Notes under the pieces: model-generated | The model's input: the letters and a program-made list of their open reading frames with translations, nothing else | The model's database searches: none | Told to the model about the DNA's origin: nothing | Shown: positions 1-37,399 of the stretch, piece after piece | Layout: each line of letters starts with the position of its first letter | How positions within the stretch are numbered: position 1 is the stretch's first letter | Made by a program: the position numbers and the translations under genes | Origin: Eutreptiella sp. 'Long Island Sound 2002' | Lineage: Eukaryota; Euglenozoa; Euglenophyceae; Eutreptiales; Eutreptiaceae | DNA length: 64,000 nt | Direction of reading: 5' to 3' | Assembly (NCBI GenBank): GCA_964036045.1 | Contig: OZ038385.1 | Span: 29,573,306 to 29,637,305, forward strand

Positions 1-2972
1 TTTTCCTGAGCTTTCGCTTTTTGCGCTGCCGCCTGGTGTCGCTCACTTCTGTGCTGAAGGACAGTGTGTCCGCTGCAGACAGTGTGTCCGCCGCAGACAG
101 TTCATTCAACAACTCTCCCTGGTGTGTGTGTCCTGTCCTTATGTCCTCACTTTCTGAACTGCTTGAGGTGTATGGACCCATTCCACGTGGCGCTGCTTCC
201 CCGGATGCTTCCCCTGTCAGCTCATCACTATCCATGGGTACCATACCCAAGGATGACCAGAGTGCCTTGGTGTCCTCTGAATCTGATCCAGACCCTCCCC
301 TCAAGCCTACCGTAGACTCCGACCCTGATGATGAGTGTGGTGCAACATGCTGAGACCACAGCGGGCTCGAACACATGCCTTCCATCGCCAGTCCATTCGC
401 CACCTCATTCCCCTGTACGTTGACATGGGCTGGGACACGCTCCCACCTGGCTTCTCTTGCTGGCGTCGCCATTTCCTGGAGCAGGATTTCCCAGACGGGG
501 ACGTGGACCTGCAGCTTACCAGACGTGGTTGTCCATCCCTTTGACTTCCAGTGCTGGGCCCTGCCATTCGCTCCCAGCTGCAGGTACTGTGAGTCGGTGA
601 GGATTGCCAGTTTTGGCACCCAGAACCCCTGTAAGGCTTCCAGGGCTGCCCAAAGCTCCGCTCCGTTATTTGTTTGCCTGTGGCGTGTTGGTACGTAGCC
701 GCAGAAGCGCACCTCCGGTCCTTGCTCATCTTCCGCTGCGAATACGCCAAAGCCCCCGGCCCTGCGCATGTCCTTGTGGCTCAGTCGTTTTAACGACCCG
801 TCCGTGTACACAATCCTGTAACCCTTTGCTACCAGTTCTGCAATCAGATCTTGCACTCCTTGTAGCACTCCCGGGCCTGCCTGCCTCGGGCGCTTCGGGC
901 GTGATTCCGTTTCCCTATGCCAAATGTGCTTGTCGGCAGATCGCTCTTGCGTGAAGCAATCTGTGTGTGTTTGCCACCATGCATTCAATCCCCCATGGAC
1001 CCGTACTTCCCCTTGTCGTGGCTGCACTCCGGTATCTTGAAGCTGCTCCAGTGACTGCTCGAAGCCTTTCCACTGTTCCCTGCGCTCTCCCGAGTAAAAC
1101 CCCACCCATTCACACAGCTCCCTTAGCCAAGTTGTCAGGTATGATGTGAACACCGGTGATGCTCCCGCTTTGACTTCGCATCGGTATCGCCAGTGGGCAC
1201 TTCTTGCCGACCACATTGCCCAGCCTTGATTCGTGTTCAGCAACCACTCCTGGTGGTCGGACTCCATCATGTCTCGGACCGCAGACTTCCCGTTACCAGT
1301 GTCCACCGGGCCATAATAGTGCTGTATAACCGCCGCCGCCGCTTTAAACATGGGGCATTCGACCATCGCGTGCTTGACCGTCTCCTTTTGAGAGCACACC
1401 GGGCACTTGTCCGTGCCCGACCTCTTGTAGACTCTTGCGTGCACAGTCAGTTTGTGCGACAGCACTTTTTGTGCAAAGTCCCGAACCCTCGGCGGGAGTT
1501 GTGCTTGAGCCCATTGTTGCCATACCTCCGGTGTTTGTGGGTCGCGGACCCCTGGCTGTGAGGCGTAGAATTGAAGCAGCCATGCCCTGGTCCAGTTTTG
1601 GGCGTGGACCGCGGGGGTATCAAACCCCCCTTGTGACAGGACTTTATTGAGGAGTCGTCCGCCATGATTGTACACCCCTTTCCATGTTCGAGGCAGTGCA
1701 TTCAACAGCCTTACGTCCTCCAAGGATTGCAATTGACCCCACGTCAGCACCCCCTGTCGGATCATTTTCGTGTTGTAGTAGGAGCAGTTGAACTCATTCC
1801 GGAAGTACACAGAGTGCCATAATGGCAGTTGGTCCCGGTTTGCCGGGGGGGCCACTTGTGGGGCCACCCGTTGGATATGTGAGTGTGCCTTTGCTGACCA
1901 TCCCAAGAACGTCAGCTCCGCCGTCCGGACCATGCCCAGCTGGATATATGGGAGGTTGTCTTTGGATGGTGTGAACCCGATGGTTGTCGCCCATGCATAG
2001 AAGGTCTCCACTGCCTTGTCGGGATACTTGTGAGGCTCCCCCAAAAGGCTGACGAACGGAGCCGCTGCCTGGTGCATGAGAAACAGCTCTGGCTCCGGCA
2101 ATGCCAGTCCCCCGTGCGTTCTTGGCCGTGAGAGGATTGGCAGGGTAATTCCCCAACTGTTGGTACCCATGGTCACGTGGTACACCAACTTCAGCTGTCT
2201 GACCACTGAGATTGGGGCATAGTATGCCTTGGATACCCAGGCCACAACCGGTAGGATCCATGATGTCAGCATGAATGCACGTTCGTCCATCGACAACTGC
2301 AGCGTGGATACCACCCGTGCGCGACGAAAGGCCTCTTGCAGTGCTGGTGCAAAAGCCTGCTCTATTGTCAGCCCCCATCCTTGGTCATCCTGTTGGTGCC
2401 GTACATTCCCCAAGCGTACACCCAGATACTTGACGAAGTTTTTGACGTCCACCCCAATGTCCCGAAAGCACCTCGCCCACTCCATTCCCCCACAGTTGCG
2501 AACTATCGCTGCCGTTTTGCTCAGGTTGACCTTCAGCCCAGAAAATTGTCCAAAACAAGACACCACTTCCCACACCCTCCTCAGCAGCTGTGGGTTGGCA
2601 CGTCCATCCAAGAAGATGATGAGGTCGTCCGCATACATCATGATAGTCAGCCCTGGACCCAGGTCTTGTAGTGGGAAAATCACAAAGGATGCCACCAGGG
2701 AGAACAATGCCGGGGAGAGTGGGTCTCCCTGGCGCGTGCCTGCACGCGGGTGGTGATAGACACCTGGAACGTATCCCTTACCAACCGAGTACAGATACGG
2801 TGCACGTAAAAGATGCAGTATCAGCCGGATGTACAGGAACGGTATGCACATTAGACCCAGTGCCGCCGACACCATCTCGTGAGACATCGTGGGGAACGCA
2901 TTTCTGAAGTCCACTGACAACGCCGCTCCTTCACGTAAGCCATCCCAGAGTGCCCGTGCCTTTCAGATAGGC
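1..2972 (-). pseudogene. LINE-1 ORF2, C-terminal part: RT palm/thumb, zinc knuckle, RNase H
   Basis: One frame appears open from about 2972 to base 1 (about 990 codons). Visible in order: RT motif A (SVDFRNAFPTMSH, near 2910), motif B (GDPLSPALFS, near 2710), catalytic motif C MYADDLIIF at 2638-2612, thumb motif KYLGVRLG, a zinc knuckle CPVC...H...C near 1390, the RNase H start VYTDGSLK near 810 with NNGAEL, a TDSQY motif and a VPAHVNVQGNEVA motif, then a Ser/Glu-rich stretch and a basic tail (DTRRQRKKRK). It copies element RNA into DNA at the nicked target, and RNase H removes the RNA template. The fingers of the RT are missing because of the deletion at the right end, so an active enzyme is unlikely although this part has no stop. 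The frame continues past the left edge. Confidence 0.85.
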
Positions 2973-4409
2973 CACACATTCTTCCTCCGTGGCCCCCGTT
3001 GGGGTGGACACTTGATCCCAATGTTCCACCGGCTCTTTTGCCACCGCCTTTGCTCCGCGTACTGCCGTGCCTGCCCGAGACACCAGCTGCTGAAGTTTCT
3101 TTCGCTCCTGCAGCTCCCGCATTAGCCGGTACAACTCGTTTCTTCGCGTTCTCAGATCCCCTGAGGTTTCCCCCGACGTGATCACCCCCTCGAGCTTGGA
3201 GAGCGTTTCCATGCCCGTTCTGTCACGCTGTGCCTTTTCATATACCCCAACCAGGAGAGTGTAAGCCGTTGCCGCTTCTGTCGCTGCAATTCCCAGTGAC
3301 GAAAGAAATTGATAGACCGCTGGTGTGACGGGGTCCCTTGTGGAGCCACGTAAGAGCCGTAGGGCCTGTAGTTCAACTGATTGCTTTTTGTTTTTGTGCT
3401 CCCTTTGGTAGCTGACCGCCTTCTTTTGGATGCAGCCCAGTGCATCTTCCCACCATTGATCTCCCGTCGAGGTGATAGACTTGAGAGAAGTCTCCAGATC
3501 TTCCATTGCCTCAGAGTCTTGGAGGATGGCCTCTGGGCAGTAGAATCTAGGAACTGTGTCCTCTGTTTCGAAGGATGGGGGTGTGAATTCAGCCAGGGTT
3601 GCCTTGTGGTCCGAGTTGGCAGCAAACATGGGGTACACGCTGGTCGCCAAGCTCAACAAGTCTGGCGTCGTGTGTATGCGGTCAATACGGCGTAATCTCT
3701 GCGGATCGAACCGCTCTCCTTCTCGAGGATAGCCGTATGTGAAGCCCGTCGGGCATGATGATTCTTTGTCCTTGATGTCCGTCAGAGTTGGACAATGGAT
3801 GTCCACCCAAACGTCCTGCAGACCCGCTTTTGCTAAAGTTGTCACCTCCTGTTCTCTGGCACGTAAAGACGTGTCATGCTCAAACTCTGGGGGCGCAAAG
3901 GCGTCCCTGTGTTTTACCACTAAACTATTGTGATCAGCACATAAAATCAGGTTCGGTCCATGTAACTCCTTGGCGATGTCCTTCCATTGCGACTGCCGTC
4001 GCGTGTGCTTGTGATGGAGGTGGGCCACCACTAAAGTGATCTCCAATGGACCACTCGACAGTGAGGCTTTCGGCGCCCTGGGAGACAGGAACTTCATTAA
4101 TTGTAATGTCCACTTGGATGTTTTCCACGCCAGTGCCACTCCTCCCCGTCCTTCTTCATGAAGTGGTCCGTCCAGGCCATACCCGTACTTTGATAAGCAC
4201 TGCATGCCTGCTTGACGATCCTCCACCGTGACGAAGTGGGGCTCTTGGACGGCGAAGAAGTCCACCTCCAGGGACCGCAGCAGTGACCCTAGGGCCACTA
4301 TGCGCTTTTGCTTACGCTTTCTCATGGTTATTTTCGTTTGGAACCCATTGATATTTTGGGACAGTACTCTGAGCGTGCTGCTCAGAGGGATGCTTGATGC
4401 AGACGGCAT
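2931..4409 (-). pseudogene. LINE-1 ORF2, N-terminal part: AP-type endonuclease
   Basis: The N-terminal domain of ORF2, about 492 residues to a stop at 2931. Endonuclease signatures: SQNINGF (about residues 17-23), AVQEPHF with the metal-binding Glu at 56, LCADHNSL (the GDFN-type site, Asp159/Asn161), RRIDRIHTT and SDHKAT. The family nicks target DNA to prime reverse transcription. The ATG at 4409 lies inside the end of ORF1 (28-base overlap), which suggests reinitiation or coupled translation. After residue ~480 (EECVAYLKG) the frame runs into LINE-1's internal deletion and stops. The homologous protein of LINE-2 continues at this point (ECLSFLKGMRLPSNF) into the RT fingers, which places the deletion junction near 2960-2975. 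Confidence 0.85.
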
Positions 4410-6004
4410 CGTGCTGCTCCATTGAACGACGAAGCCTCCTCCTCCTTCAAGTCCCGCTTGCGTTTGAGGGAGCTGATGACCTTGTCGACTTGGTCGTCCA
4501 ACTCCATGGCCTTGGCCATTTCACCCGCCGTGATGAGGCCTTGCTTGCGTGTCTTTGCGTCATCTGTGCTCCTGGGCCGGTCCGTGATGCGCCTTTTCCG
4601 CGCCTCATAATCCGCCTCGGAGAGCACAAACATTGGGAACATTCCAGAGTCCGACAAGTAGACTTTTCCAATCAGCTGTGTCACACTTTCCCCAGTCATC
4701 CGCCATGTGGCCGTGCGCATCTCCCCAACACTCCACCTGACACGGTCTGCGATGTACCGGCACTGTACCGAAGGAGCAAGAGCCTCAGTCAGATCCGAGA
4801 GATACCACCAGGGTGCCACATCCAAGATGTACATTGTGCCTACCAATTCCTTCTGCCATGTCGAGGGGACCGTGGGCTTGGAGATGATGTCTCTGTCGAG
4901 GAACTGTCATGTCTTCAGGTCCTTGAAGACAGCCCCGATGGCAGCCACCAGTTCACGGTACCTTGTCTTCAGCAGCGAGTGCCCAGTTTCTGTGAGACCC
5001 AGCAGTAGTTTACTGGGACCCAGTACGTGGATTTTCACTGGCGATTGTGCCTGCAAGACGCCCGGGATTTTCCAAAACATTGCGAGAACTGAGGCATACA
5101 GCATGGGCGACCATGTTTCCTTGTGTGTCTTCTTTATCCATACCTCATAGACAGCAGACATGTTGGTCAGGTTGGCCCCACGATACCATTCCACTGGCTG
5201 GATCTGGAACCTTGGCTTGGATCCGAATTGTGACACTATGGTATTCACTTGTTCCTCATTTAGTTCTGTGAAGAACAGCTTCGAGTTCCGTGGGTCTGTT
5301 CCCGGAAGGAGATGGACTTCATCAGAGTTCAAACCAATAGACCCCAGCAGCCCGTTGATTAGGTCATTGTGGACCTGTATGGCGTACTGATTATCCCGCA
5401 CATCTGGCTCGTGGAACACCACCTTGTCAACCTCTGCCCCAGGTGTCATAAGCCGCAGGAGCTTGTACGTTGGGGGCGGTGATAGGTTCCTGGAATCCGT
5501 TGTGCTGCTTGCAATCCAGACATCAAATCGACCATGTGTGCGTATGTGCATGAGGGACCTGTCCACCATTTGCAGCTTGTCGCAACCGAAAGGCAAATTG
5601 GAGTTGAGAGCGAGTGCCCGATTGAGAAACGATGGCTTGTCATCATCATCGCTGACAGGTTCAAGCAGGATAGCAACAAAGCGGCCCAGCATGGGCAAAT
5701 CAGGAAGCAGTCTCTTCATTGCATTTTGGATTTTGTCATATTCAGTCATTTCCCCTACGAGCACTACGTTGGGGCGACTGCCGTAAAGGACGGCAGCTAG
5801 TTTTTCGGACGAGTCGCAGTCCTTGAAGAGGTCGTACGACAGGGAGGCAGCCTCTGGAACTCCACTCTTCAGCACCACTTCGTCCTGGATGATGTAATAT
5901 GTGTCATCGATGGCTGCCAAACACGCCAATTGACCGGCGTCGGCAGGAACGATGACCTCCTCGCCTGGCGTGGCCAGACGGGCCTGGGTGTCCCGGACAC
6001 TCAT
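4382..6004 (-). pseudogene. LINE-1 ORF1 protein, one in-frame stop
   Basis: One frame of about 540 codons starts at the ATG at 6004 (MSVRDTQARLATPGEE) and is interrupted only by a TGA at about 4907; the same frame then continues to 4382 as a Lys/Arg-rich C-terminus (SLKRKRDLKEEEA). By position it is the ORF1 protein of the LINE, which in other families binds the element RNA. I see no CCHC knuckle or RRM that I can name, so the function rests on position alone. The C-terminal basic/acidic stretch could be a nuclear localisation signal. The stop is best read as a nonsense mutation in a dead copy; readthrough cannot be excluded from one copy. Confidence 0.7.
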
Positions 6005-6361
6005 GCGGTGAGGGGACAGGGAGGTGACGTCGGCGGCAGTTTGTCAAGGCCCAGCGGCCCAGGCAAGCATGGACAAAAAGACACCGAAAAAAAAATAGAC
6101 ACTCAGAAAGTGTAAAGGCGGCACCGCGGGGGGGGGGGGGGGGACTGCTGTCCAATAACCCAATAAGGATGGTACCCCAGGGGGGGTCGCTTTCTCAAAG
6201 GTGCGACACCATGACGAAATGACCTTTCTTTGGGTCCCTCAAAAAAAGGGGTAGTTTTGGGGGGTTTGTGGGGAGTTTTGGCTAAAAGAAGTGGGGTGGG
6301 GTGGGTGGGTGGGGGGGGGGGGGCTGGGGGGTTAGAGCGGGTTTTGCCCGAAAGTGGCGGT

Positions 6362-6785
6362 GTGGGGGATCAATGGTGGGTGACGATGGACTGAATGCCC
6401 CCACAATAGACACTTTGAGCCATTAGTTTGGTGGTTCTTGCACAGCAAACTATGTCCCCTTCTTGGTTGGGGTGCTCTACTATCGAATGTACAACAATAT
6501 GTACCGGTGTATATGGTAACCCGGGCGGGATTACAATGGGTGCCAGCCGCGCTATATAACCATTGGTAAATCGAGACGTGTTGTGACCAATATAGTTTAT
6601 ACCCGACCGCAGGTGCGGGATGGATAAGCACGAAATAGCCATGCAGCCATCTGCCGATAGCAGTGAGGGGAGAAAGAAAGTGTGGTATATTGCGTTTAGC
6701 TCTGCGGGTCACTTGAGTGATTGTCCTTTCTGCCGACTCTATAGAACAACCAGGATCAATATAAAGCCGTCGTCCATTAGGTGTG
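6362..6785. repeat. Dispersed repeat family F1, copy 1
   Basis: Similar in sequence and order to 37487-37733. Both begin GGGGGATCAATGGT, share CCCCTTCTTGGTTGGGGTGC in the middle and end with AACAACCAGGATCAAT. The second copy lacks roughly 190 internal bases. No coding potential; class unknown. Confidence 0.75.
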
Positions 6786-7179
6786 TGTGGAGGGGGGGGA
6801 GGGGGGTTGTTAGAAGGTGGGTGGTGGTGGGGGGGCACACCTCTGGAGCCGACATGGGTGGTATTTATGTTTCAGGGGAAAAAAACCCGGGGGTACTCTC
6901 AACTACAAAATTTTGTAGCGCCCAACCCAAGCCTTTTGTCGGCGGTAAGAGTCCCCATGCAAAATGCATGGGGCGAGAACCCGGGCAAGCAATCGGTGGA
7001 CCCCGCGTGGGTATGAAAGGCCGTTCAGTAGGTGGACCAAGTCTAGTGTGTAACGTCAATCTCGCCACCCAGCCGTTCCGGATTTGCTTGCCGCTAGCTT
7101 GCATCCAAATGGTGCTCCAAATGATGGACCCCGGGTGGATGGGGAACCTCATCCTGGCCATTCGGCGGTGCCCCAAGGG

Positions 7180-7350
7180 GAATGTTTGCCCGGCGCGCCC
7201 GGCGCGCTACTTTTCTGTTAACCATCCCGGCTTCAGCCCTAGATTTACCCTCTCATGGAGAAGCCCCCCAAGTAGACCACGTTGGACTGCACACCTTCCC
7301 GACAAAGCACGTTGCATAATAAGCAATAGCTGTGAATTCAACAACTGCAA
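7180..7350. repeat. Dispersed repeat family F2, copy 1
   Basis: Contains a GC-rich TTTGCCCGGCGCGC block, then TTTACCCTCTCATGGAGAAG, then ACAAAGCACGTTGCATAATA and CTGTGAATTCAACAACT. Parts of the same sequence recur at 37400-37487, 40915-41040, 48955-49080 and 50205-50290. No reading frame is conserved, so a non-autonomous element or SINE/MITE-like sequence is likely. Confidence 0.75.
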
Positions 7351-7468
7351 ATCAAAGAAATCACCTCGGCTCCGAGAAGGTCCATACCCATCCCAAATGA
7401 AAACATCAGCCGATGTCCCGGGGGCCAAGGGGTGAATCCATCCTTATAAACATGCGACGCATACTTAG

Positions 7469-7552
7469 GATTCCCCCCTTACCTCCTGACATCCACAGCT
7501 CATACATACACAAACACAAAAACCAACACCGCTGCTTGCTCCTTCACTGGCG
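7469..7552 (-). repeat. DIRS-A split direct repeat B2 (3' end)
   Basis: An 84-bp copy of 7740-7823 with two mismatches. It begins GATTCCCCCCTTACCTCC and ends CTTCACTGGCG. It marks the outer 3' end of DIRS-A. Confidence 0.85.
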
Positions 7553-7649
7553 GTACACTCGTGTGCCGTGGCTCTATGATACACTTCTCCATGATTGTCA
7601 TCAATGGTGTCACTGAAGTGTGCGTAAAGTGTCTGGGCGGGTGGGCGGG

Positions 7650-7745
7650 CCCAAAAATCTTTAAAAGATTCTATAGTGAAAGTGCATATGAGTGGCATTA
7701 TGGGGTGAATCCTGTGATTCGCCTAAAGGCGAATCCCTTGATTCC
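7650..7745 (-). repeat. DIRS-A split direct repeat A2
   Basis: A 96-bp copy of 13097-13192 with one mismatch. It contains a perfect 9-bp inverted repeat, GATTCGCCT-AA-AGGCGAATC. It overlaps B1 by the six bases GATTCC, as expected for the joined ends of a circular intermediate. Confidence 0.88.
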
Positions 7746-7823
7746 CCCCTTACCTCCTGACATCCACAGCTCATACATACACAAACACAAAAACCAACAC
7801 TGATGCTTGCTCCTTCACTGGCG
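7740..7823 (-). repeat. DIRS-A split direct repeat B1
   Basis: An 84-bp repeat directly abutting A2; matched by B2 at 7469-7552. It lies downstream of the last ORF of the element. Confidence 0.85.
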
Positions 7824-8118
7824 CGCCAGGCCCGAAGGGCACCGTAGTTCATCTCTGACTCCCCACACCAAGCTGAGGCTCTCGTGGCGACAATATAAGT
7901 GGGCGCGCTCGCTCTCTGCAGCATGACGTTGTTGTCTCATCCATCGCACTTGCGAGGGGAGCTCCCTTTTATATACCCTGGGCATAATCATGCTCTGTCA
8001 GTACACATGCACCCCCCCCCCTCCCCCCTCCCGCAGCATTACTCCTTCCTTACTCTGACTCTGGAATGCCATGGAAGGCCTGTGCAGGAGCGACAGTCAT
8101 CCCCTTGCCAGCCTCGCA

Positions 8119-8636
8119 TCAGTCGGAGTCCTCCTGTTCCACGTCGTCCTTCACAAGCTCGGAAACATCCTTTATGAGGTCAGCTTTGCCGTTGACGGTG
8201 ACTCTTTGCACGGCTGTGGCATTGTGGGTGAAGGACATCGTCAGCCTGACTCCCGGCGCCAGTCGCAGCTCGTGGCGGACGAGGTAAAGGTGGCGTCGGG
8301 TTTGGTCTTTGCCCTTCTCAGCAGGCTCGACTCGTGCCATTGCATACCGCGCCCGGGCGCGGCGCGTGATCCAACCACAGAAGGTCTGCCAGGCGTTGTG
8401 GAGGTCCCGTTTTGGCATTGGGTGGCACACACTATTGCGAAGGACTGCTCGGTCATCGTCCCCAGAAGGTATCTGGGCTTTGCTGCATTGAGGTGTCCTT
8501 CCGCCGCCCTCCGTCGCAGCGTGCGCGCCTTCTGCGCCAGTTTGCCCTCTGGGCCTCGCGATCCTCGTGGGCGCTTCGATCCCACCTTCTCCTCGTTATG
8601 GAACTCCTCCTCATTTTGGTCTTCCCACTCAGACAT
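8119..8636 (-). pseudogene. DIRS-A extra ORF downstream of RT-RNase H, unknown function
   Basis: From the ATG at 8636 (MSEWEDQNEEEF) a protein-like frame runs to about 8420, then continues in another frame to a stop at 8119 (ending VKDDVEQEDSD). Together about 170 codons: an acidic start, a basic middle (QKARTLRRRAAEG), then a region with alternating hydrophobic residues (RHLYLVRHELRLAPGVRL, VQRVTVNGKADLI) that could form beta strands, and an acidic end. I recognise no family. It sits between RNase H and B1, so it belongs to the element. Methyltransferase and hydrolase ORFs are known in some DIRS-like elements, but I see no motif of either. DIRS-B has no counterpart between its RNase H and B1. 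Confidence 0.55.
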
Positions 8637-8707
8637 GTTGCCAGGGCCTGCTACAGCAAAAAAGGGGACACGCAAGCCATCGCCCATGCGAGGATTGTTT
8701 CCCCCTT

Positions 8708-10807
8708 CTACAGACGAACTGACCCAAAGGTCTGCACAAGGTGCAGCTCCTCGCACAACGCACTCCACTTGTTTGCCGCCTCAACCTTTGCCCTAGCAAT
8801 ACTTGCAGGTGTCAGATCTGGCAATCGGGATACAACGTCAGCAGGCATGCGCGCAGTATCAACCCAGACAACATTCAAGACCATGCCCGTGTGCCACAAC
8901 AAGTTCCAAAGAGCACGGAGTATCTTCACTTATGTACATGCCCTCGTCGACGCCCTCATATTGGCCGCACTGTAGCAGGCCGCCGTATTGTCCACAAACA
9001 AGGAGACCCTGTGCCACTTCTGCGTCACCGCAAACCTACAGGCATGTAGGACACCGCTGAGCTCTGCCTGTTGTTGGTTCTTGGCCGGGACCTTTCGCGT
9101 TCGCATGACTCCATTTCGTCCAGAGATACCCAGGCGGTACCCTCCGGTAGCTTCCGCTGCATCCACCGACAGGAATGGTGCAAATCCAAAGTGCCCAGGC
9201 ATGGGGTCAACCGTGGCAGGTACATATGAGATTGCCAGCGCATCGAACAGCGCCGATATCAGGGCCGGGCTCGGGCGGTGCTGAAAGCGATGATGTCCCC
9301 ATTGGAACCGATGCCATCCCTGTAGGAATAGGGTGACCCCCTTTCGTGCTCCAAACGCCCATTGCATTTTTCCCGTGACCCGTTCCGCCACCTTTGGAGA
9401 TACAGGCGAGCAGGCCGTTTTGATGGCAATCCCCAAGCACTTGGTGAGCATTTTGTCGGTGTTTCGCACCTCCCCTTTAGCCAGGTCGAACACTTTTCCC
9501 AGCCACAGGACATTCTGATGTGGCTTGAGGCAAGATTTGGTAGAGACACGCAGACCCTTCGCCGTCAAGAATGCCGCTAGCTGTGGACCCGGACTGTCCG
9601 TACACTCCCTGTCACGTGACAAGATCAGGACATCATCCAAATAGTGGAAACGATGGATGTCGTGCCCCACCGCGTGGTTGTCAAAGAACTCCCTCAACAA
9701 CGCCGCCAACGTGTCCTCTGCCGTTACCGGGGAAAATTTCCACGCAAACGGGAGGCAATTGAAGTGCGCCCCTCGTATGCGAAATAGTCCCCTATGCTCA
9801 GCCGGGATTTGCAGGCTCCAGTAGAAGTTGGATATGTCCAAGGTGATGCCCCACAATGGTGCTCCTTGGTGTATCTCCCTTTGGATGGTCTGAAAGACCG
9901 TATGAATGGACGGAAGGTTCACCTTGCGCAACGGTACCTTCGAGCAGTCATTCAGATTTCGCATGTCAATGATGAACGAGCACTTCACATCATTTTTGGG
10001 TTTAACGAACGCCGACACATTGTCCGTGAGGTCTTCCCACTCAGGGGCTCCCAAAAACCCGGGGTCACGACACAGGAACCCATCATCCACCAGCACTCCA
10101 ACCATGCGCCTGGTGTGTAATGACGGTTGCCACACATCGAATCTCCCACAATCTGGCCCCGACTTCCAACTCCGTATATCCCAGATGAGCCGCGTCGGGA
10201 TGTTCGCGTTCCATACATCCAAGGGGATATCCAGGTTGCCCCTCTCTCCAAGGCCCGCAGCAATCATTCCTTCTGAGATGCCTCCTGACGGGCCATCTCC
10301 ATCGTACCCGTCGTAGTCCTGACTCAGTAAGTCCCGGTTAAGCTTATGCAGAGCATCCAAGTGACTTGAGATTCTTTCTAGGTGCGCCTGCCCACCTTCC
10401 ACATCTCTGAGGCGCTCCCGCGCTCGGAGGATTACCGCAAGCGTGGCCCAGAAAAGCTCATTCCGCGGGATATCAGAAACCTGCTCAACCCGTCTGGATG
10501 CCGACCACGCACATGTCCGCGCTCGTTTATATGTTACCCACGCTCCTGCTACACGCCCTCCTCCAACACCCATGAGCGATTTCATCCTTCTTGGTTTGTG
10601 TTGTCCATCTACCTTGTTGCCGGGTAATACATGCACCGACTCCCTGCCCTCCCCCAATGCCCCATAGCCCGTCCGGCCATCTGCCTCTTCACGTGCCGCG
10701 TCTCCTCTTACCCCTCCTGCCGTGGGTCTTCCGAGGTGAGGGGCTGACCGAGGATGACCCAGTGCATGTGGAATCCCCAGAGTCGCTCTCCGGGGTGTCC
10801 CCCTCAA
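8708..10807 (-). pseudogene. DIRS-A reverse transcriptase-RNase H, one in-frame stop
   Basis: A 625-residue frame, then a TAA at about 8930 and the same frame on to 8708. RT motifs: AFVKPKNDVKCSFIIDMRNL (residues ~266-285), LDISNFYWSLQIP with catalytic Asp324, LPFAWKFSP (~352-360) and YLDDVLIL (389-396), the DIRS-type variant of YxDD. RNase H follows: an acidic SVDAAE start, QQQAELSG with the catalytic Glu, VDNTAA, and after the stop ADVVSRL, the usual C-terminal motif of DIRS RNase H. The enzyme makes the circular DNA copy of the element. It begins 15 bases after the recombinase ends. The single stop may be an inactivating mutation; otherwise the frame is remarkably intact. Confidence 0.88.
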
Positions 10808-10821
10808 GGATATTGTAGGCC

Positions 10822-11970
10822 TCAGGTGGCCTCAGGTGCCCAGAACAGCAGAATTCCGTGCATCGCCTGGTTGCCGTTCCCGCAATCCATGGTTTCCCCT
10901 TGAGGTAACTGGGGGGGGGCAGGTGCCTTGAACAGGTGTCGGATGCGCCCTGGGTGTGGGCAGTTGATGTAGGCCATTGCCGTCCTTGTGCTCCTCCACC
11001 TGAACCATGCCTTCATGCTTGGGAGCTTGCCCCCAGCCTTGTACATGGTCGCTGGACCGAGGCGTCGCGATGCATGCCATCTGAGATTCTTCCACTTGGA
11101 TCCACGCAACAGGTTTGCCATGACATTTTGCAGTTTGTCCTCAGAGAACAGCCGCTGGAACTTGTCGAGGTTCCAGCATCTTTGCGCAATCCAGGCGCAG
11201 AAATGCAACCATTTGAGGGCCACTCCAGAAACCGTACGGGTAATCCAAGCCCTGTGGACTTTGCGGTCATAGAACTCCGCCGTTCCTGCCAGAACCCCCA
11301 ACCTGTGGAAGCTGATGCTGGCCGCCTCGCCGACTCTGAGGCCCAACAGCGTTGAAAGTACCGCGAGTCCCACCACACACCACTCCAGCTCTGAATCCGC
11401 CTGGTGTGCCATGATCTGCAGTGCCTCAAAACTGCCCCACTCCTGTGTGGACTTCTCTTCCAGTCGTTGTGCCGCCTTGAACGCCTTCCACAGTCTTTTT
11501 GGAACCGGTTCGCCGACCATCCCCATGGTGTATGTCATGGCAGCCGCATTGAGGATTGTTTTGACTGAGCTGCTGCCTTTTCCCTCTCGAATGGCATCAC
11601 ACACGACTTGTTCCACGATCTTATATGGTCCCCACCCCGGCCTGGCCATATGCGTCTGTCGGAGTTTTCGCATGCCCGTCTTGTACGTACCCAGCGATGT
11701 TGTGCCAGAGGAGCTTGCGAGGACTTGCCAGTTGCTTCCCAGGATCCCGTCCTTGTTGTCTGCCTGGTCTCGACACAATGCAGCATATGCCCGTCTGTAT
11801 GCAGGCCACTCCCTGGGAATCTCGTCCTCTTCACTTTCCACCTCCACTTCTCCGTCATCCCCAACGAAACGCTTTGGGGTGCCCTCTGCCATGCCCCCCC
11901 CTCCCCCCCGTTCCAGGGGAGTCAGTTTTCGCAGTCCCATATCCACTGGTTGTCGCCACATTCTCCACAA
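10822..11970 (-). CDS. DIRS-A tyrosine recombinase (integrase)
   Basis: An uninterrupted frame of 382 residues. The C-terminal half carries the recombinase signature: Arg212 in LLGLRVGEAASI, the His-x-x-Arg box in LRWHASRRLG (His299, Arg302), and a candidate nucleophile Tyr334 in TAMAYINCP. The N-terminal part has an acidic segment (VESEEDE) and a predicted helical core-binding region. The enzyme would insert the circular double-stranded DNA form into the genome by site-specific-type recombination without target duplication. The start overlaps the end of Gag by about 50 bases in another frame; a later Met at residue 27 is also possible. Encoding it upstream of RT is the reverse of classical DIRS, Ngaro and PAT. 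Confidence 0.88.
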   Translation of the reverse strand: MWRMWRQPVDMGLRKLTPLERGGGGGMAEGTPKRFVGDDGEVEVESEEDEIPREWPAYRRAYAALCRDQADNKDGILGSNWQVLASSSGTTSLGTYKTGMRKLRQTHMARPGWGPYKIVEQVVCDAIREGKGSSSVKTILNAAAMTYTMGMVGEPVPKRLWKAFKAAQRLEEKSTQEWGSFEALQIMAHQADSELEWCVVGLAVLSTLLGLRVGEAASISFHRLGVLAGTAEFYDRKVHRAWITRTVSGVALKWLHFCAWIAQRCWNLDKFQRLFSEDKLQNVMANLLRGSKWKNLRWHASRRLGPATMYKAGGKLPSMKAWFRWRSTRTAMAYINCPHPGRIRHLFKAPAPPQLPQGETMDCGNGNQAMHGILLFWAPEAT

Positions 11971-13056
11971 GGCCCTGGGGGGCCCTTTGCCACGTCATAC
12001 GCGTTGTCGCCTCTCGCAGTGCAGTAGTAGGTGATGTTCTCCCGGTCCGCCAACCTGAATCTCCCTTTTCGGGTCGCTTCAATCCACGTTCGGGCTCCCA
12101 ATCTTTCCAACTCCTTGACAGATCTTGCCGTAACTCGGGATTGGGGTTGTTTCCCGGTGCCGTTGTGTGAGCCACCAGTCACACTGTGGCCCCCGCTGGG
12201 GTATTTCTCCTTGTAGCTGTCCTTGGAGACCAGCATCACCTCCCACAGTTCCTTTGCCAGTGTTTCCCCTTTGTCCCCCTCGTTGGACTCCACGAACTAC
12301 TTCAAAAAAGCAGTCGCTTCACGCATCCATTTGGCATTTCCCGGGGCTTCAACAAACTCGTCCAGCGCTGCAGGGGTCAGGGGGAGCACGATTTTTGCCC
12401 TCCGCTTGTGCTCCAGTCTCACTTTGAGTGCTTCCATCTGTTTTGAGATCTCCTGCTGCTCTAGGTCCACAGGTGCGTCTGGTTTCCCGCCATCCGATGC
12501 ATCGGCCGTCACCAGGTTCAGCTTGTGGCCCTCTGGAATGATGATCCACTTGAAATTGTCGAAGAGGGCCAGCGCCCCCATTGCCCTGAGCACGAATTCG
12601 GGGTCTTCCGCCTTCTGGGTCTCTGGCATGCCCTCAGCAAACTCTCAGATGGCCAGGCGGTGCTTTGCTGCCACTGCCATGCCTGCCTTCGCGATTTCGG
12701 CGCTGGAGCAGAATTTTTCAAAAGTGGTCCATTGCAATTCCAAAAGCGACTTGATGCGCGCCCCGATCTCTTCGCTAACGGCCAGCTCCGTCTCCTTTTT
12801 TTGCTTTGAATTCTCCTGTTTGGACTTCAATTGTACATCGACAACAGAGTTTGAGCGGATCTTCTTCCCAGCCAGAGGCCTTCTTGAGGTCCTGCAGCCA
12901 TTTGTTGTGGTCCACACCCGCGTCTCTGATGCGCTGCATGATTTCCACCGCCGCTCTCGCCAAGTGGTCCGCGGGGAGGGTGGTCTTGTAGACCTCGATC
13001 TGGCCCTTAGAGACGAAGTCTTTGAAGGTGAGGGACAGCATGCTGATAGCGGACAT
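11922..13056 (-). pseudogene. DIRS-A Gag-like protein, frameshifted
   Basis: The first ORF of DIRS-A starts at an ATG at 13056 (MSAISMLSLTFKDF), 41 bases inside A1. The coding frame changes near 12840 and then has in-frame stops at about 12645 (TGA) and 12297 (TAG) before ending at 11922; joined length about 375 codons. Charged helical stretches (QQEISKQMEALKVRLEHKRR) fit a coiled-coil or structural protein. The C-terminus has PCGECGDNQWIWDCEN, a Cys/Trp cluster resembling PCRICGHCHWYWQ in the DIRS-B Gag, and may bind zinc and nucleic acid. Position and this motif support a Gag role; no capsid domain is recognised by eye. Confidence 0.65.
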
Positions 13057-13096
13057 TTTGTATGGATCTCCTTACGTGGCCTGACGGGCCTGAGAA

Positions 13097-13192
13097 CCCA
13101 AAAATCTTTAAAAGATTCTATAGTGAAAGTGCATATGAGTGGCATTATGGGGTGAATCCTGTGATTCGCCTGAAGGCGAATCCCTTGATTCC
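13097..13192 (-). repeat. DIRS-A split direct repeat A1 (5' end)
   Basis: 96 bp, identical to 7650-7745 except one base in the loop of the GATTCGCCT/AGGCGAATC hairpin. It lies 41 bases upstream of the Gag ATG and marks the 5' end of DIRS-A; it may also hold the promoter. Confidence 0.88.
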
Positions 13193-13256
13193 GCAGGTCG
13201 GCACTCCATATCCCACCAATAGATCTGATGGGCATGGAGTTTGTGAAAATGTGAAA

Positions 13257-13435
13257 TAAGCATCAAAATAACCTTTTTCAAACAACAATAATGTCCATAG
13301 TATCACGAAGTATGGGGTTCTAGGACGGCTAGATATCCAAATAGTTGCACTGCGCTTGGTGCACCCCCTAAAAGGTCACCGGTGGGGCACGGGTAAAAAA
13401 AGGTGCCCGGCGCGCTAACGCTCCCCCCCAATCCG
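13257..13435. repeat. Dispersed repeat family F3, copy 1
   Basis: Shares CATCAAAATA, AACAACAATAATG, GGACGGCTAGA, CCAAATAGTTGCACTGCGC, GCACCCCCTAAAAGGTCACC and GGCGCGCTAACGCTCCCCCC with 41370-41575 and 50697-50885. Those two copies form the right half of a composite with F2; this one stands alone beside DIRS-A. Non-coding. Confidence 0.75.
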
Positions 13436-13546
13436 CCGTGTACCCCACGACGCCAATCTTGCCACCCAGCCGTTTCCCTGGCCACACCCGTTGGCACTAG
13501 TATGTCTCTTGTGGGCACTGGGAACACACTTATGGGCAGACCACAC

Positions 13547-13550
<4 letters not shown>

Positions 13551-13640
<90 letters not shown>
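13551..13640. repeat. (GA)n microsatellite
   Basis: About 90 bases of GA dinucleotides with short GGAGGGA interruptions near 13604-13613. Open frames across it on both strands (EREREsR or LSLSLS) are artefacts of the repeat. Confidence 0.95.
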
Positions 13641-13643
<3 letters not shown>

Positions 13644-14600
13644 TTGCACACACCTAGGGAATTTGTCGAACGTTGACTTGCAATTGTCCCGACTTGGCAA
13701 AATGCTTCGCCTGCGATGCGACGGCAATGCACATGGTATGCATGAGTTGGTAGTCGATAAGTTGCTATGTACAGCATGCCAAAGGAGCCCCTAGTAGCAC
13801 AGCACATGTGGCATAGCCTGCTCGTCCACCCAGAATGTTAAGGGTCTGCAAATTATGCGAACAAATGATACCAGTAGTAATGTGCTACTCCAATTGTAAG
13901 GCGGCAACCTCTATTGTGTGCACCATGAGGCACAAAAGAGGCATTATACAAACAACAAACATTGTAAGCCAAACAGTGAACGTTCAAGACAGTACACAAG
14001 CACCAACATGCAAGGGGCCATGAGCAACGGATGCTGAGCAGGCATATACCCCCGCGACACAGGCATACGGTCATAGCTATGAATCTTATTACATTGATTT
14101 GACTTGCCGCACTGTAGCACAAACTAGAGCAACATGCGGGGGGAAGGGGGGGCTTAATAGTAGCCCAACCTTTTGCTTCACAGACTTTCGGGTTTAATAT
14201 CGCAAAAAAGCGTGCACACGTGCAAGGGTTTTGTGCCTTTGGTTGTGGATTTTTTTTGACGAAGCTGTAATAGTTCTGCAATAGCTCTGCAGCAGTATGA
14301 GTGAATCTCCGGATCTAAGTACACTCTCAGAACATACCATAGCTTCCTCCCCTGTCAAGGACAGGGATAAAGGATGACGAAGAAGGAGCAACTTATATTC
14401 CTACCTTGAGTATACCTGCAGAGTGACCAAGGGGTCGCCACGACTCATGTTTGGCCCTTGTCTTCTCAACTTTGACGAGTTTTGTTGGCTCCAGGGACGT
14501 GCATGGGTGAGTCTGGTGATACTCTAATTCGCCCTGTTATCCTCCTAGTGGTAGACGTCTATTTGGCTTGTGGCGGTGAGTAGGCCGTGTTGTGTGGTGC
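13641..14600. other. No gene seen
   Basis: About 1 kb with no recognised coding sequence or repeat family. Part of it may be the 3' untranslated region of LINE-6, whose last stop is at 14664. Confidence 0.5.
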
Positions 14601-14663
14601 TTCCTCACGCCGTTGCAAGCCCTGTTGTAGAAGTGCGTACCGTAGACCGAAGATATGATATGA

Positions 14664-15745
14664 TTAATCCAACTCATGCACCAACTCCTGGTATGTTTTT
14701 TCCATATGATGCAGCCATTTACCCACCCTCCTATACCTAATACCGTCATAGTGCCGGTCTCTGAGAACACTTTGGCACCCATTGTTGTGCAGGTTCTTTA
14801 CCTCCCACATCACTCGAGTGGTTTGGTACTTAATCCTGGGTGCGGACAATTTCTCCATCACTTTTTGATGCCTGATAGTATCCTGGGTGAACTCAAGGTA
14901 TTTTAGTGCCTTCACCTTGGTTTGGTATGAATCTTGGTGCTGTAAAATCTTGTGACACTCCTTGTCATCTTCCTGTGTCACCGTGGCAGGTGCGTTGACT
15001 TTTGCACGCTTTTGTTTCCAAGGTTTATACATTACTTGTTGCTGCAACACTTGTGGGGTGGGATTTGGCGTACACACCCTCGGCTTGACCTTACCGTACC
15101 ATGCGCTAACGAATTGACTAGGCTGTGTTGCTTCATTGTCCCTGGGGGGCATAACTCCTTTCTTAGCTGGTAGAAAATGCGAAACATCATGTATTGGTGA
15201 TGTGCCGTGCTCCTGGAAGTGAGGTCCATATACCTGGGGCAATTGGTCATAGAACGAACTAGGAACTCTTAGGCACGCGACATGGTGCATGTCTTCCGGG
15301 GACGCGTTATCGTATCATTGCTCTGCGTATTCAGCCCATGTGACCCATGATTGTGTCCATGCCTTCCTGAATGAGGGAGCCCATTTTGGGCATTGAATCA
15401 ACCGCTTGTGCACGGTGGTGCCACGCTTGGTATTGCATATGGGGCACTTCACAATATTATGATCCCATGGCGTGCCACATCCATCCCACCGCTCATTTCC
15501 CCGAAGCGATTTAACCCAAGTCATCCGGCGGGTTCCTATGAGCGGGAGCCAAGACACCCAGTGTGTACCTGAAAAAAGGTCATGGTGTCTCCTCTCTATG
15601 ACCCATTCATTGGCTCGGGTAGGCGCAGACCCCCATCGGCAGCGGTGTCACCTAGGTGGGTAGGTGTGTATTCACGAAGAGGTAGGCCAGTCGCCATTTT
15701 AGCCAGACGGTCAACCTCATCGTTACGTCTCATTTCTGTTCGCTC
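14664..15745 (-). pseudogene. LINE-6 ORF2 C-terminus: RNase H end, zinc knuckle, basic tail
   Basis: Begins with the end of RNase H (RRNDEVDRLAKMATG, near 15720-15670), then a knuckle CPICNTKRGTTVHKRLIQC (near 15450; C-x2-C...H...C), then about 270 residues rich in Lys, His and Gln ending in RVGKWLHHMEKTYQELVHEL before the stop at 14664. A stop and a frame change near 15315 and one near 15560 break it. The knuckle-plus-tail layout is usual for LINE ORF2 after the RT. The same region can be followed in LINE-7 at 24.7-26.3 kb. Confidence 0.7.
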
Positions 15746-20005: not shown

Positions 20006-20536
20006 TCACATGCCGTTTGACTTGTGAAAAAGGGATTGGGGCGAATGGGCTACAGAACCAAATCCTGGAGGTGGGAGGGGGCTCTCTTGGAGTGGGTTGT
20101 GGGTCACCATAGTGACCCCAAGGTGGTCACCGGCATTAGAATAGTCTAGGGTGTAGTAAGCCTCAGGAGTACCAATTCCCCTAGCATCAACATAGACCAG
20201 CATGGCATCGAGTCGTTGACCCCTATTGTGCGTGATTAATCCAGCAGGGGAAATGTCTTCAGCAACAGCCATGGGTGGATCTTGTAATGTTCCGCTGGTT
20301 AGTTTGGTGTCCCACCACCTAGTGGGCTTGTGTGATTCCCCCCGAATCTTATAATTGAATTCCCCCATTAGGATGTCAACTCTATTGAAGGTGCCAAGCC
20401 ATTTGTCAATGGCGTGCTGTTGCGCCTTTTCGAAGGGTCCGTGTATGGTGAATATTACCAGGGGGGGCTGTTGAATCGAAGCGTGCCCACGCGCTGATTC
20501 AAAATAGGGTCTAGACCCCTCTAGGAACCTGCCCAT
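20006..20536 (-). pseudogene. LINE-6 endonuclease, C-terminal half
   Basis: Keeps ILMGEFNYK (GDFN-type site, Glu for Asp), NRGQRLDAMLVYVDA (R-x-D) and SNAGDHLGVTM (S-D-H region). The N-terminal half with the Asn and Glu ligands is absent because the element is truncated at the hairpin satellite. Nonfunctional fragment. Confidence 0.7.
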
Positions 20537-22294
20537 GCGCTGATTCCTAGAGGAATCTAGACCCCTGTAGGAATCACCTTGTTTTGAATCAGCGCATGCC
20601 CAGGCGCTGATTCAAAATAGGGTCTAGACCCGTCTGGGAATCAGCGCGTGCCCATGCGCCGATGCTTAGAGGGGTCTAGACCCCTGTAGGAATCACCCTG
20701 TTTGGAATCAGCGCGTGCCCACGCGCTGATTCAAAATAGGGTCTAGACCCGTCTAGGAATCGGCGCGTGCACACACGCTGATTCCTAAAGGGGTCTAGAC
20801 CCCTTTAGGAATCACCCTGTTTTGAATCAGCGCGTGCCCACGCGCTGATTCAAAATAGGGTCTAGACCCGTCTAGGAATCGGCGCCTGCCCATGCGCTGA
20901 TTCTTAGTGGGGTCAAAACCCATGTAGGAATCACCCTGTTTTGAATCAGCGCGTGGGGACGCGCTGATTCACTATAGGGTCTGGGCCCCTCTAGGAATCA
21001 GCGCGTTCCCATGCGCTGATTCCTGGAGGGGTCTAGACCCCTGTAGGAATCACCCTGTTTTGAATCAGCGCGTGCCCGCGCGGTGATTCAAAATTGGGTC
21101 TAGAGCCCTCTAGGAACCAGCGCGTGTCCATGCGCTGATTCCTGGAGGGGTCTAGACCTATGTAGGAATCACCCTGTTTGGAATCAGCGCGTGCCCACGC
21201 GCTGATTCAAAATAGGGTCTAGAACCATCTAGGAATCAGCACATGGGCACGCGCTGATTCCTAGAGGGGTCTAGACCCCTGTAGTGCTGACCCTGTTTTG
21301 AATCAGCGCGTGCCCACGTGCTAATTAAATAGAGGGTCTAGACCTGTCTCGGAATCAGCGCGCGCCCGTGCGCTGATTCCCAGAGGGGTCTAGACCCCTG
21401 TAGGAATCACCCTGGTTTGAATCAGCGCATGCCCACACGCTGATTTAAAATAGGGTCTAGACCCGTCTAGGAATCAGCGCGTGCCCTCGCGCTGATTCCT
21501 AAAGGGGTCTAGACCCCTGTAGGAATCACCCTGTTTTGAATCGGCGCATGCCCATGCGCGGATTCAAAATAGGGTCTAGAGCCCTCTAGGAATCAGCCCG
21601 TGCCCATGCACTGATTCCTAGACGGGTCTAGACCCCTGTATGAATCACCGTGTTTTGAATCAGCGTGTGCCCACGGGGTGATTCAAAATAGGGTCTACAC
21701 CCGTCTAGGAATCAGCCCGTGCCCATGCACTGATTCCTAGAGGGGTCTAGACCCCTGTATGAAGCACCCTGTTTTGAATCGGCGCGTGCCCACACGGTGA
21801 TTCAAAATAGGGTCTAGACCCGTCTAGGAATCAGCGCAAGGGCCCGCGCTGATTCCTAGAGGGGTCTGGACCCCTGTAGGAATCACCCTGTTTGGAATCC
21901 GCGCATGCCCACACGGTGACTCAAAATAGGGTCTAGACCCCTCTAGGAATCAGCGCGTGGGGACGCGCTGATTCCTAGAGGGGTCTAGACCACTGTAGGA
22001 ATCACCCTGTTTGGAATCAGCGCGTGCCCACGCGCCGATTCAAAACAGGGTCTAGACCCGTCTAGGAATCAGCGCGTGCGCACGCGCTGCTTCCTAGAGG
22101 GGTCCGGACCCCTGTAGGAATCACCCTGTTTTGAATCAGCGCGTGCCCACGCCCTGATTCAAAACAGGGTCTAGACCCGTCTAGGAATCAGCGCGTGCGC
22201 ACGCGCTGATTCCTAGAGGGGTCTAGATCCTGTTTTGAATCAGCGCGTGCCCACGCGATGATTCACAGAGGGGTCTAGACCCCTCTATGAATCA
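20473..22294. repeat. Hairpin satellite, about 15 units of ~119 bp
   Basis: Unit markers (AATCACCCTGTTTTGAATC) recur near 20572, 20692, 20810, 20929, 21049, 21169, 21289, 21408, 21526, 21646, 21766, 21884, 22003 and 22121. Each unit has two long inverted repeats with arms like GAATCAGCGCGTG / CACGCGCTGATTC and a 2-base loop, and two TCTAGA-centred palindromes such as AGGGGTCTAGACCCCT. Units diverge by scattered substitutions, many retaining pairing. No coding frame. On either strand it could extrude cruciforms or fold as RNA hairpins. Confidence 0.92.
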
Positions 22295-29110: not shown

Positions 29111-29884
29111 GCTGCACTGCAGCGTAGACCAGTTCTGTACCACACCAGGTGGCTGCTAGGTGTGCATTGGCACTGTTCCTCTGGACATCGAGGTCGGCTC
29201 GCACCCACCACCCACCCACAGTGCCGGTTAGTCTCTAACCCTTGCCCTGCAGGTTGTGAGGTCGTGTCATACTCCATCCTTAGGGGCGCAATGGCGCCTT
29301 GGTTGGCGCAAAAGCGTCTCAGTATTTCAGCATGCGCTCCGTCTGTCAGGCAACTCAACAAATCATTGCTGTTATGCGTGTGGCGCATACCACGTCTGCT
29401 CCCCACGCTGCATGCGCATGCCGCCCACACATTCATGCCTACTTGCTTTCGTCTTCCTCACATGGGCCGCACTCTCGCCGCCCCAGTCGTGCTTTGGCTG
29501 TGCAACACGTGACAACATGTTGTGCCTGTGGCTCAGGGGCGCTACGGCGCCCTGTTTTTTCATTTCTTGATTGTTCCGTGTCTCCGCGGCGTCCCTTTCA
29601 CCTCGCTCTGCTCGAACCCACCCTGCTCAGCCCGAACCCTGGTCAGCTCGAACCCACCACCTCCCTTTGCGCCGGTTAGCCCCGGTCTCTCGCTCTGTGG
29701 GTCTCTCTCCTACTCTCTCCCTCCCATTCTCTCGTGCTCTCCCCTGCTCATCCTCTACTGTTGCGCCTCTCTGTTCCTTTCTCACCGTGCTCTACCCTCT
29801 CTCTCTCTAACTCTGTGTCTCTTTCCCTCTCCCGCGCCCAAAAAAAGGGGGTTCGGGTTGCTTGGTGCATCTCTATCCCCCCCG
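29111..29884. other. No gene seen
   Basis: A pyrimidine-rich stretch lies at 29690-29840 on the plus strand. No protein motif. It separates the LINE-3 3' part from the ORF at 30022-30663 and may be replacement sequence for the deleted middle of LINE-3. Confidence 0.5.
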
Positions 29885-29950
29885 GGGTTTGAACCATCCT
29901 CCAAAAGACAGAAGAGGTGCGGTGTATCCACTAGGCCACGACGATGGGTT
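29885..29950 (-). repeat. tRNA-like pol III promoter, likely SINE
   Basis: Minus strand: a perfect box A TGGCCTAGTGG (29938-29928) and a box B GGTTCAAACCC (29895-29885) about 30 bases apart, the spacing of tRNA-derived promoters. No complete cloverleaf is evident. Just right of it, GGCACCAT repeats four times (about 29957-29990). Confidence 0.5.
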
Positions 29951-30021
29951 ATTTGCACCATGGCACCATGGCACCATGGCACCATGCGCTTCACTCTTCT
30001 TCTCCTTGTTGTCACCCCCTG

Positions 30022-30663: not shown

Positions 30664-30879
30664 GACGCCTGGGTGCCTGTCCGCGACAGGACGCGGCGTT
30701 CAGCTGCTTGGTGTTCTCCTGTGCGTGTTGCTGCTCCCTGCGACAGAACACGACTCGTATGTTGCAGGCTCTACTGCGACAAGACGCAGCTCATGTGTTG
30801 CAAACTCTGCGTCAGAACACAAGTGCTTCAGACTGTGCGAGGTGTCTGCACCATTGTGCATGGGCTACTGGTTTCGTCA

Positions 30880-34436: not shown

Positions 34437-34529
34437 ATGTATGGCCGGTAGCTATTGACCCTTGGTAACTAAGTGGGCCCGGAGGGCAGGGAGGGAGGGG
34501 GGGGTCGCGTACCCGACCCGAGGAGACGC
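34395..34529. repeat. Dispersed repeat family F4, copy 1
   Basis: Matches 36669-36798: GGCGCCTTTGG, ATGTATGGCC, ATTGACCCTTGGTAACTAAG and GAGGAGACG occur in the same order and spacing. It is fused to the truncated 5' end of LINE-2. Confidence 0.78.
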
Positions 34530-34544
34530 CCCCCCCCCCCCCCC

Positions 34545-37372: not shown

Positions 37373-37399
37373 CCTCTTGATGCCATTGATTGCTTCCCT

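Follow-up and report, generated by a model that had tools for sequence, protein, structure and literature searches.

A candidate tyrosine-recombinase retrotransposon family with split direct repeats and the recombinase encoded ahead of the reverse transcriptase

Introduction

What kind of retroelement encodes its tyrosine recombinase (YR) ahead of its reverse transcriptase (RT), and is that order a family trait or an accident of one copy? The question is raised by an element (element 1) at 13192–7469 on the minus strand of the 64,000-nucleotide stretch of DNA analysed here (the window). Within the literature searched, in the text available, YR before RT is described only for the kinetoplastid elements VIPER and TATE, and a search of open-literature listings and selected passages returned no report of this order outside kinetoplastids. 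Both Ngaro and VIPER are shown with split repeats of the form A1-[ORFs]-B1A2B2 in the cited passages (PMC8547959, PMC6681497). The window also contains fragments of further elements and abounds in transposable elements and satellites. Coordinates are window positions, and features lie on the minus strand unless stated otherwise.

Results

Split direct repeats enclose element 1

We find that element 1 reads A1 – Gag – YR – RT-RNase H – B1A2 – B2. The 96-bp 5' terminal repeat A1 (13097–13192) differs from A2 (7650–7745) at one of 96 positions, and the 84-bp B1 (7740–7823) differs from its partner B2, the 3' terminal repeat (7469–7552), at two of 84. The last bases of B1 are also the first bases of A2, GGAATC (7740–7745; GATTCC on the plus strand), and the same motif is present at both outer ends of the element. 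These repeats and their overlap had been proposed in the first-pass annotation, and with its cuts we recover identities of 95/96 and 82/84 and the shared GATTCC. A repeat search returns the B pair as an 84-nt repeat (D2, 7469–7552 and 7740–7823) and the A pair within a longer one (D1, 7629–7745 and 13076–13192); these pairs at the ends are direct, and the search gives no inverted pair of at least 20 nt in 6000–15000. Within A1 lies a hairpin-like inverted repeat with 9-base arms (13163–13183), with a counterpart in A2 (7716–7736), and a pattern search of the whole window matches it nowhere else.

Genes and state of the copy

The YR ORF has 356 codons from its ATG at 11892 (10822–11892), versus 394 in relatives such as P0030, and G-rich runs lie immediately 5' of its start codon (11894–11909). 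Its putative catalytic residues are R186, H273-x-x-R276 and Y308; R212, H299-x-x-R302 and Y334, as first annotated, are the same residues correctly numbered in the 382-aa ORF. An alignment of four sequences, two of them relatives at 26 and 30% identity, shows no variation at H273, R276 or Y308, while R186 is Q in element 2 (described below) and is altered in alignment rows P0032 and P0051 too. Pfam gives no match for the element 1 YR, and PF00589 is found in five of 11 aligned YR members, at E-values of up to 1 (best 0.0094), all below the cut-off. With a low-confidence structure model (mean pLDDT 49), the best 27 Foldseek matches are all Cre, the Cre derivative Tre or integron recombinase, with none reaching an E-value of 0.001 and TM-scores near 0.2. 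The catalytic R, H-x-x-R and Y, the weak PF00589 signal and the Cre-like fold ranks together point to a YR, and a Pfam scan of eight ORFs of element 1 finds no integrase or endonuclease domain.

The RT-RNase H frame, counted stop to stop (8708–10831), contains an in-frame stop at 8930–8932, and the first ATG common to relatives lies near 10585. RT passes the Pfam cut-off (PF00078, E = 2.9e-8); RNase H is weak in Pfam, and its fold matches RNase H structures. Judged from sequence and fold, element 1 carries the RT and RNase H domains expected of YR retrotransposons (order DIRS). No methyltransferase domain is found in the eight scanned ORFs, nor in the related proteins P0001, P0013 and P0030. 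A C9 run (10911–10919) sits at the change of frame from YR to RT, and three different frames occur just downstream among relatives. Counted stop to stop, the two ORFs overlap by 10 nt in element 1 and by ~140 nt in those relatives whose YR has 394 residues; there is no overlap when RT is counted from the first shared ATG.

Upstream of YR lies a Gag-like region of ~378 codons with a cysteine-rich tail (11922–13056), of which 109 residues match P0013 at 92%; in-frame stops interrupt it in this copy, and its frame shifts once. A possible fourth ORF of ~170 aa (8119–8636) is spread over two frames in element 1 and is intact in the relative P0021, at 77–80% identity; it has no Pfam match above the cut-off. 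With stops in Gag and RNase H and frame shifts in Gag and the possible fourth ORF, element 1 is, to judge from its sequence, a dead, decayed copy of a multi-copy YR retrotransposon, which cannot work because Gag and RNase H are interrupted. The description of the element as autonomous therefore does not hold for this copy; the family, unlike the copy, may be autonomous. The suggestion of recent activity is supported in part: the repeat pairs differ at just three of 180 bases, yet this copy has already lost its function.

The gene order is common to the family and to a diverged second element

Among 123 gathered proteins, 13 hold both a YR and a part of the RT ORF, and in every one of them YR comes first. 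In most of the 13 that part is the N-terminal region of the RT ORF; P0007 continues from YR through the RT domain, and P0013 places Gag ahead of RT. The families of the group are deeply diverged (about 24–37% between them). Relatives also come from other sources, namely the proteins P0025 ('lgn', 33%) and P0065 ('jgi', 37%).

The window holds a second, strongly diverged element (element 2, 64000–51348) that is split by an insertion and has the order of element 1 together with paired 113-nt repeats. Its Gag-like tail with a cysteine-rich end (63371–64000) is cut by the window end, and A1, if there, falls beyond that edge. Next comes YR (62063–63367), which contains a stop at 62876–62878 and in which Q replaces the first Arg of the catalytic set. 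The N-terminal part of RT (61369–61848), recognised by comparison with element 1 proteins, is divided from the C-terminal part (52453–52968), in which SLDD replaces YLDD, by an insertion without assigned strand (52970–61368) that contains two satellite arrays. RNase H (51942–52490) was likewise recognised by comparison with element 1 proteins, and the B1 repeat (51697–51809) is 99% identical to a second B repeat (51348–51460) 349 bases away. The YR, RT and RNase H pieces, in that order on one strand, each beat the best of 40 shuffles when compared with element 1 proteins, and the B ends of elements 1 and 2 resemble each other (GGGGGGAATC and GGGGGAAC).

Is the order nonetheless a local rearrangement, in this copy alone, of a classical element of the DIRS, PAT or Ngaro type? 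For DIRS, this is the outcome that the first-pass annotation had named as refuting its reading. RT of element 1 does show distant similarity (26% over 43% of RT) to P0118, which carries an RT together with a Dam-type methyltransferase and which we take to be DIRS-type. P0118 is, however, the only methyltransferase carrier of seven proteins scanned; the eight ORFs of element 1 carry none, and RNase H of element 2 has no match above shuffles to that of P0118. Because all 13 two-part proteins and the diverged element 2 share the order, it is not a local rearrangement, and we regard that origin as very improbable. The Ngaro-type order, RT-RNase H before YR, is not that of this family. In a window with fragments of other elements one might suspect that YR and RT genes without common history became neighbours by chance, or that elements are nested between the repeats, but this is contradicted by the succession of YR and RT ORF in 13 proteins of separate clusters and by the near-identical split repeats that enclose both, and we consider its probability negligible.

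Comparison with known YR elements

Cryptons, which likewise use a YR as mobility enzyme, are DNA transposons that lack RT. Element 1 resembles Ngaro, as far as the available text describes it, in its A1-[ORFs]-B1A2B2 repeats and lack of a methyltransferase, but in Cafeteria Ngaro ORF2 is RT-RNase H and ORF3 is YR (PMC8547959), whereas in element 1 YR is first. A further point of resemblance is that an additional ORF 3' of YR is described in amphibian Ngaro (PMC8547959, PMC9210276). PAT-like elements (PAT, TOC3 and Kangaroo) share the split direct repeats but, in the sources' accessible portions, are grouped with methyltransferase-bearing DIRS elements, and Kangaroo has an inverted YR; element 1 has neither the methyltransferase that follows RNase H in PAT- and DIRS1-like elements nor an inverted YR. 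DIRS1 is alike in that integration is attributed to its YR, with the circle junction inserted without target duplication, which for DIRS1 is a model too (PMC3266345). In the passages seen, DIRS1 differs in having inverted terminal repeats and a methyltransferase, and the catalytic domain of its YR lies at the 3' end of the ORF, past the pol overlap (PMC3266345). Element 1 shows no inverted terminal repeats with complementary internal regions, there being no inverted pair of 20 nt or more in 6000–15000.

The closest layout is that of VIPER and TATE, with which element 1, compared by layout, shares a Gag-like ORF followed by YR and RT/RNase H, A1 ... B1A2B2 repeats and the absence of a methyltransferase. 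VIPER is described, in the text available, as a Gag-like ORF followed by overlapping YR (335 aa) and RT/RH genes, with split repeats A1 ... B1A2B2 and without a methyltransferase (PMC5146736, PMC12278014, PMC6681497, PMC3266345). Our best reading is that element 1 belongs to a lineage of YR retrotransposons with many copies and a VIPER-type layout, unreported in the literature that our search covered; the lineage probably lies outside trypanosomatids.

Whether the family is a true member of VIPER/TATE, with a common ancestor as well as a common layout and a host near to or far from kinetoplastids, is a matter on which the evidence divides, and we hold this reading as plausible but tentative. 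Beyond the matching order, repeats and absent methyltransferase, P0025 matches the C-terminal domain of hepadnavirus polymerase, below threshold (PF00336, E = 0.062), and VIPER RNase H is reported, in the portion of the source seen, to group with hepadnaviruses. Trypanosomatid genomes are gene-dense, whereas the window is densely populated by transposable elements and satellites. The YR/RT overlap falls far short of that in the T. cruzi VIPER consensus, whose YR gene sits within the long RT/RH ORF, and element 1 is ~5.7 kb, compared with 4390 bp for that consensus (PMC5146736). VIPER-like elements are also called restricted to Kinetoplastida in the cited passages (PMC9210276, PMC3783388).

The small overlap and the possible fourth ORF 3' of RNase H, both differences from VIPER, would instead fit an independent lineage in which YR moved ahead of RT separately, as would the deep divergence within the group and a YR too distant from the Pfam integrase model to pass the cut-off. 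A single origin is nonetheless the simpler account of so unusual a shared order, and no tree backs independence: in an RT tree of eight rows, built without VIPER, TATE, Ngaro or PAT sequences, the branching is unresolved. We therefore treat a separate origin as a serious possibility that falls short of being probable.

Discussion

We consider it highly likely that element 1 is one dead member of a multi-copy family of Gag – YR – RT-RNase H retrotransposons with split repeats that moved by the following cycle, which we infer from anatomy and from precedent; the RNA, the circle, the choice of target and the activity of the family are all modelled by analogy. In intact relatives, a single RNA would be transcribed from A1 towards B2 and packaged by Gag. 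RT-RNase H would copy this RNA, with the internal B1A2 block serving as the template for rejoining the ends, and the product would be a double-stranded circle with one B-GGAATC-A junction. YR could then recombine the circle junction with a GGAATC-like genomic site, leaving a single GGAATC at each end and no further target duplication; the target of one GGAATC is read from one insertion. The repeats of this lineage could let circle junctions and target sites be read.

Element 2 places a second, distantly related element with VIPER-type order beside element 1 in one stretch of DNA. It is plausible, though we would stop short of favouring it, that the two belong to a separate ancient YR-retrotransposon lineage outside Kinetoplastea, built Gag – YR – RT – RNase H. 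Such a lineage would have relatives in other sequence collections and, within a single genome, two or more families that diverged deeply. If so, the VIPER layout would be far older than kinetoplastids or would have arisen twice, and the frame switch at the C-run between YR and RT may control the amount of RT. For YR retrotransposons, the available text leaves open whether a recombinase and an RT were joined once or several times (PMC6681497). With its many copies in a long-contig genome and a diverged second family nearby, this lineage would supply RT, RNase H and YR sequences for a tree that bears on one versus several origins.

Gene order and coding regions of element 1

Element 1 runs from 13192 to 7469 on the minus strand, where a Gag-like region comes first after A1 (13056-11922), followed by the YR ORF, whose ATG lies at 11892, then an RT-RNase H frame (10831-8708) and, before B1A2 and B2, a possible fourth ORF (8636-8119). 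This last ORF is without known domain and is unbroken in P0021, a relative from the homologue searches. The RT matches PF00078 above the Pfam cut-off (E 2.9e-8). The RNase H gives a weak Pfam signal, but structures of this enzyme from humans, archaea, bacteria and retroviruses match its predicted model, itself of poor overall quality (mean pLDDT 42.5). The YR of the window copy has no Pfam match; PF00589 is matched in 5 of 11 aligned YR members, all below cut-off (best E 0.0094). H-x-x-R and the Tyr show no substitution across four aligned sequences, among them relatives at 26 and 30% identity, and the first catalytic Arg is not invariant, being Q in element 2, a second, strongly diverged YR element. 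The 27 best Foldseek rows for the low-confidence YR model (mean pLDDT 49) are Cre, the Cre derivative Tre or an integron recombinase, with a best E of 5.4e-3, a probability of 0.97 and a TM of about 0.2.

Pooling three homologue searches gives at least 123 proteins, and 119 among the matches listed belong to the element-1 family (at least 59% identity to the window proteins over the aligned stretch), with P0025, P0062, P0065 and P0118 falling outside it. Family clusters P0004, P0005, P0011, P0014 and P0032 hold 40 to 64 member sequences each. Domain comparison finds both YR and RT-ORF parts in 13 of the 123 matches listed, and YR is N-terminal in all 13, which extends family-wide the YR-before-RT order noted in the first-pass annotation. 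Most of these hold the N-terminal region of the RT ORF; the RT-ORF part extends to the edge of the RT domain in P0018 and passes right through that domain in P0007. Gag lies ahead of RT in P0013, and single-part matches among the 123 listed comprise 28 with YR only and 81 with RT only.

The fused YR-RT frames of relatives originate around a C run, past which the relatives read in three frames, the SYLKG... frame leading to a 394-residue YR and another to RT; this may represent true variation, homopolymer sequencing error or a programmed slip. The YR/RT overlap is 10 nt stop-to-stop in element 1 and reaches about 140 nt in relatives whose YR has 394 residues; it is absent if RT is counted from the first ATG common to relatives. 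Homopolymer runs lie at the Gag/YR (11894-11909) and YR/RT (10911-10919) boundaries, but the density of runs of this kind is no higher in element 1 than elsewhere in the window.

Repeat structure, decay and a possible insertion mechanism

A repeat search around element 1 returns the direct pairs 7469-7552/7740-7823 and 7629-7745/13076-13192, and no inverted pairs of 20 nt or longer. The split A/B repeats are as first described: within the boundaries of the first-pass annotation, A1 and A2 agree at 95 of 96 bases and B1 and B2 at 82 of 84, and the reported B1/A2 overlap is confirmed as GGAATC, the end of B1 and start of A2. The same hexamer opens A1 and closes B2, and no extra duplication adjoins the outer GGAATC within 40 bases of flank on either side. 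With three differences in 180 bases, the repeats point to an insertion of no great age; to this extent the proposed recent activity stands, but present activity is not shown. Contrary to the first-pass annotation, the window copy is not autonomous: Gag has in-frame stops and a frame change, RNase H is interrupted in frame at 8932-8930, a point at which relatives stay open, and the possible fourth ORF is divided between two frames.

These repeats fit the A1-[ORFs]-B1A2B2 pattern given for Ngaro (PMC8547959) and for VIPER (PMC6681497). In the DIRS1 model (PMC3266345), a circular intermediate recombines with the target at a short sequence common to both and leaves no target duplication. By analogy, B1A2 would preserve the circle junction in stored form, and GGAATC would act as the core for crossover. 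A hairpin-like inverted repeat within A may serve the recombinase as a binding site or belong to the cDNA stage; we infer each of these steps for element 1. GGAATC occurs 65 times in the window, 41 of them within one satellite array (20481-22227); across the window in general there is no enrichment (24 outside the array versus 31 expected). Palindromes with GGAATC and GATTC at their boundaries make up part of the array's 52/119-bp units, and the match of its hexamer to the putative core may be coincidence only.

A second, diverged element in the window

Element 2 occupies 64000-51348 on the minus strand, where tblastn with element-1 family proteins locates YR (63331-62081), RT N-part (61848-61402), RT C-part (52968-52453) and RNase H (52490-51942). 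Upstream of YR, a frame at 64000-63371, a candidate Gag, has a cysteine-rich tail at its end like the Gag of element 1, a resemblance that does not establish relatedness; paired 113-nt repeats (51348-51460 and 51697-51809, minus strand) lie 349 bases apart, and the B end resembles that of element 1. All four pieces exceed the best of 40 shuffles in alignment bits against element-1 proteins: 43.9 versus 21.9 for YR (after its stop), 38.9 versus 21.2 for RT N-part, 65.1 versus 23.1 for RT C-part and 59.3 versus 21.2 for RNase H. Against the DIRS-type P0118, only RT C-part passes (43.1 versus 20.8), with RT N-part (21.6 versus 22.7) and RNase H (15.8 versus 20.8) below the best shuffle. YR, RT and RNase H stand in the same order in element 2, and the gene order thus holds across two families that are 24-34% identical in these proteins. 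Element 2 is decayed too, with a stop in YR and the Q substitution.

The RT parts of element 2 are separated by an 8.4-kb insertion, about 5.8 kb of which is satellite arrays. Of two adjoining satellites (53418-59265), one is a 21-bp/264-bp array and the other repeats a 149-bp unit about 29 times (97% matches); a 143-bp direct duplicate (53118-53260/61144-61286, 95.8% identical) lies near both insertion ends. Elsewhere, a Pfam scan of 10 further window ORFs (E up to 0.01) finds LINE-typical domains in six, two of these below family cut-off, and no domain in four; several LINE-like minus-strand fragments at 2-4520 and 27461-46846 carry endonuclease, RT, zf-RVT or RNase H domains.

Relationship to known YR retrotransposons

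Judged by protein similarity, P0025 (source lgn; 33% identity to element 1 RT) and P0065 (source jgi; 37%) take the element-1 lineage into other sequence collections. P0062 adds a third diverged YR at 28%, and the sole DIRS-type protein among the matches listed is P0118, which combines RT with a Dam-type methyltransferase domain (26% over 43% of RT). An RT tree of eight rows, built without VIPER, TATE, Ngaro or PAT sequences, gave no resolved branching.

In published descriptions, VIPER has a Gag-like ORF1, then overlapping YR and RT/RH genes (PMC5146736, PMC12278014), with split repeats (PMC6681497); ORF overlaps are described as not usual in Ngaro and Viper (PMC3266345). DIRS elements in general have the order gag, RT-RH, YR, and VIPER-like elements are described as restricted to Kinetoplastida (PMC9210276). 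Cafeteria Ngaro has RT-RH ahead of YR (PMC8547959), whereas element 1 has YR first. A search of open-licence papers, mostly at the level of listings, turned up no description of a YR-first order beyond kinetoplastids. The YR retrotransposon family to which element 1 belongs, as a dead copy, is real and multi-copy and has a VIPER-type layout, VIPER being compared by its published description, and element 2 is a diverged, likewise decayed cousin nearby.
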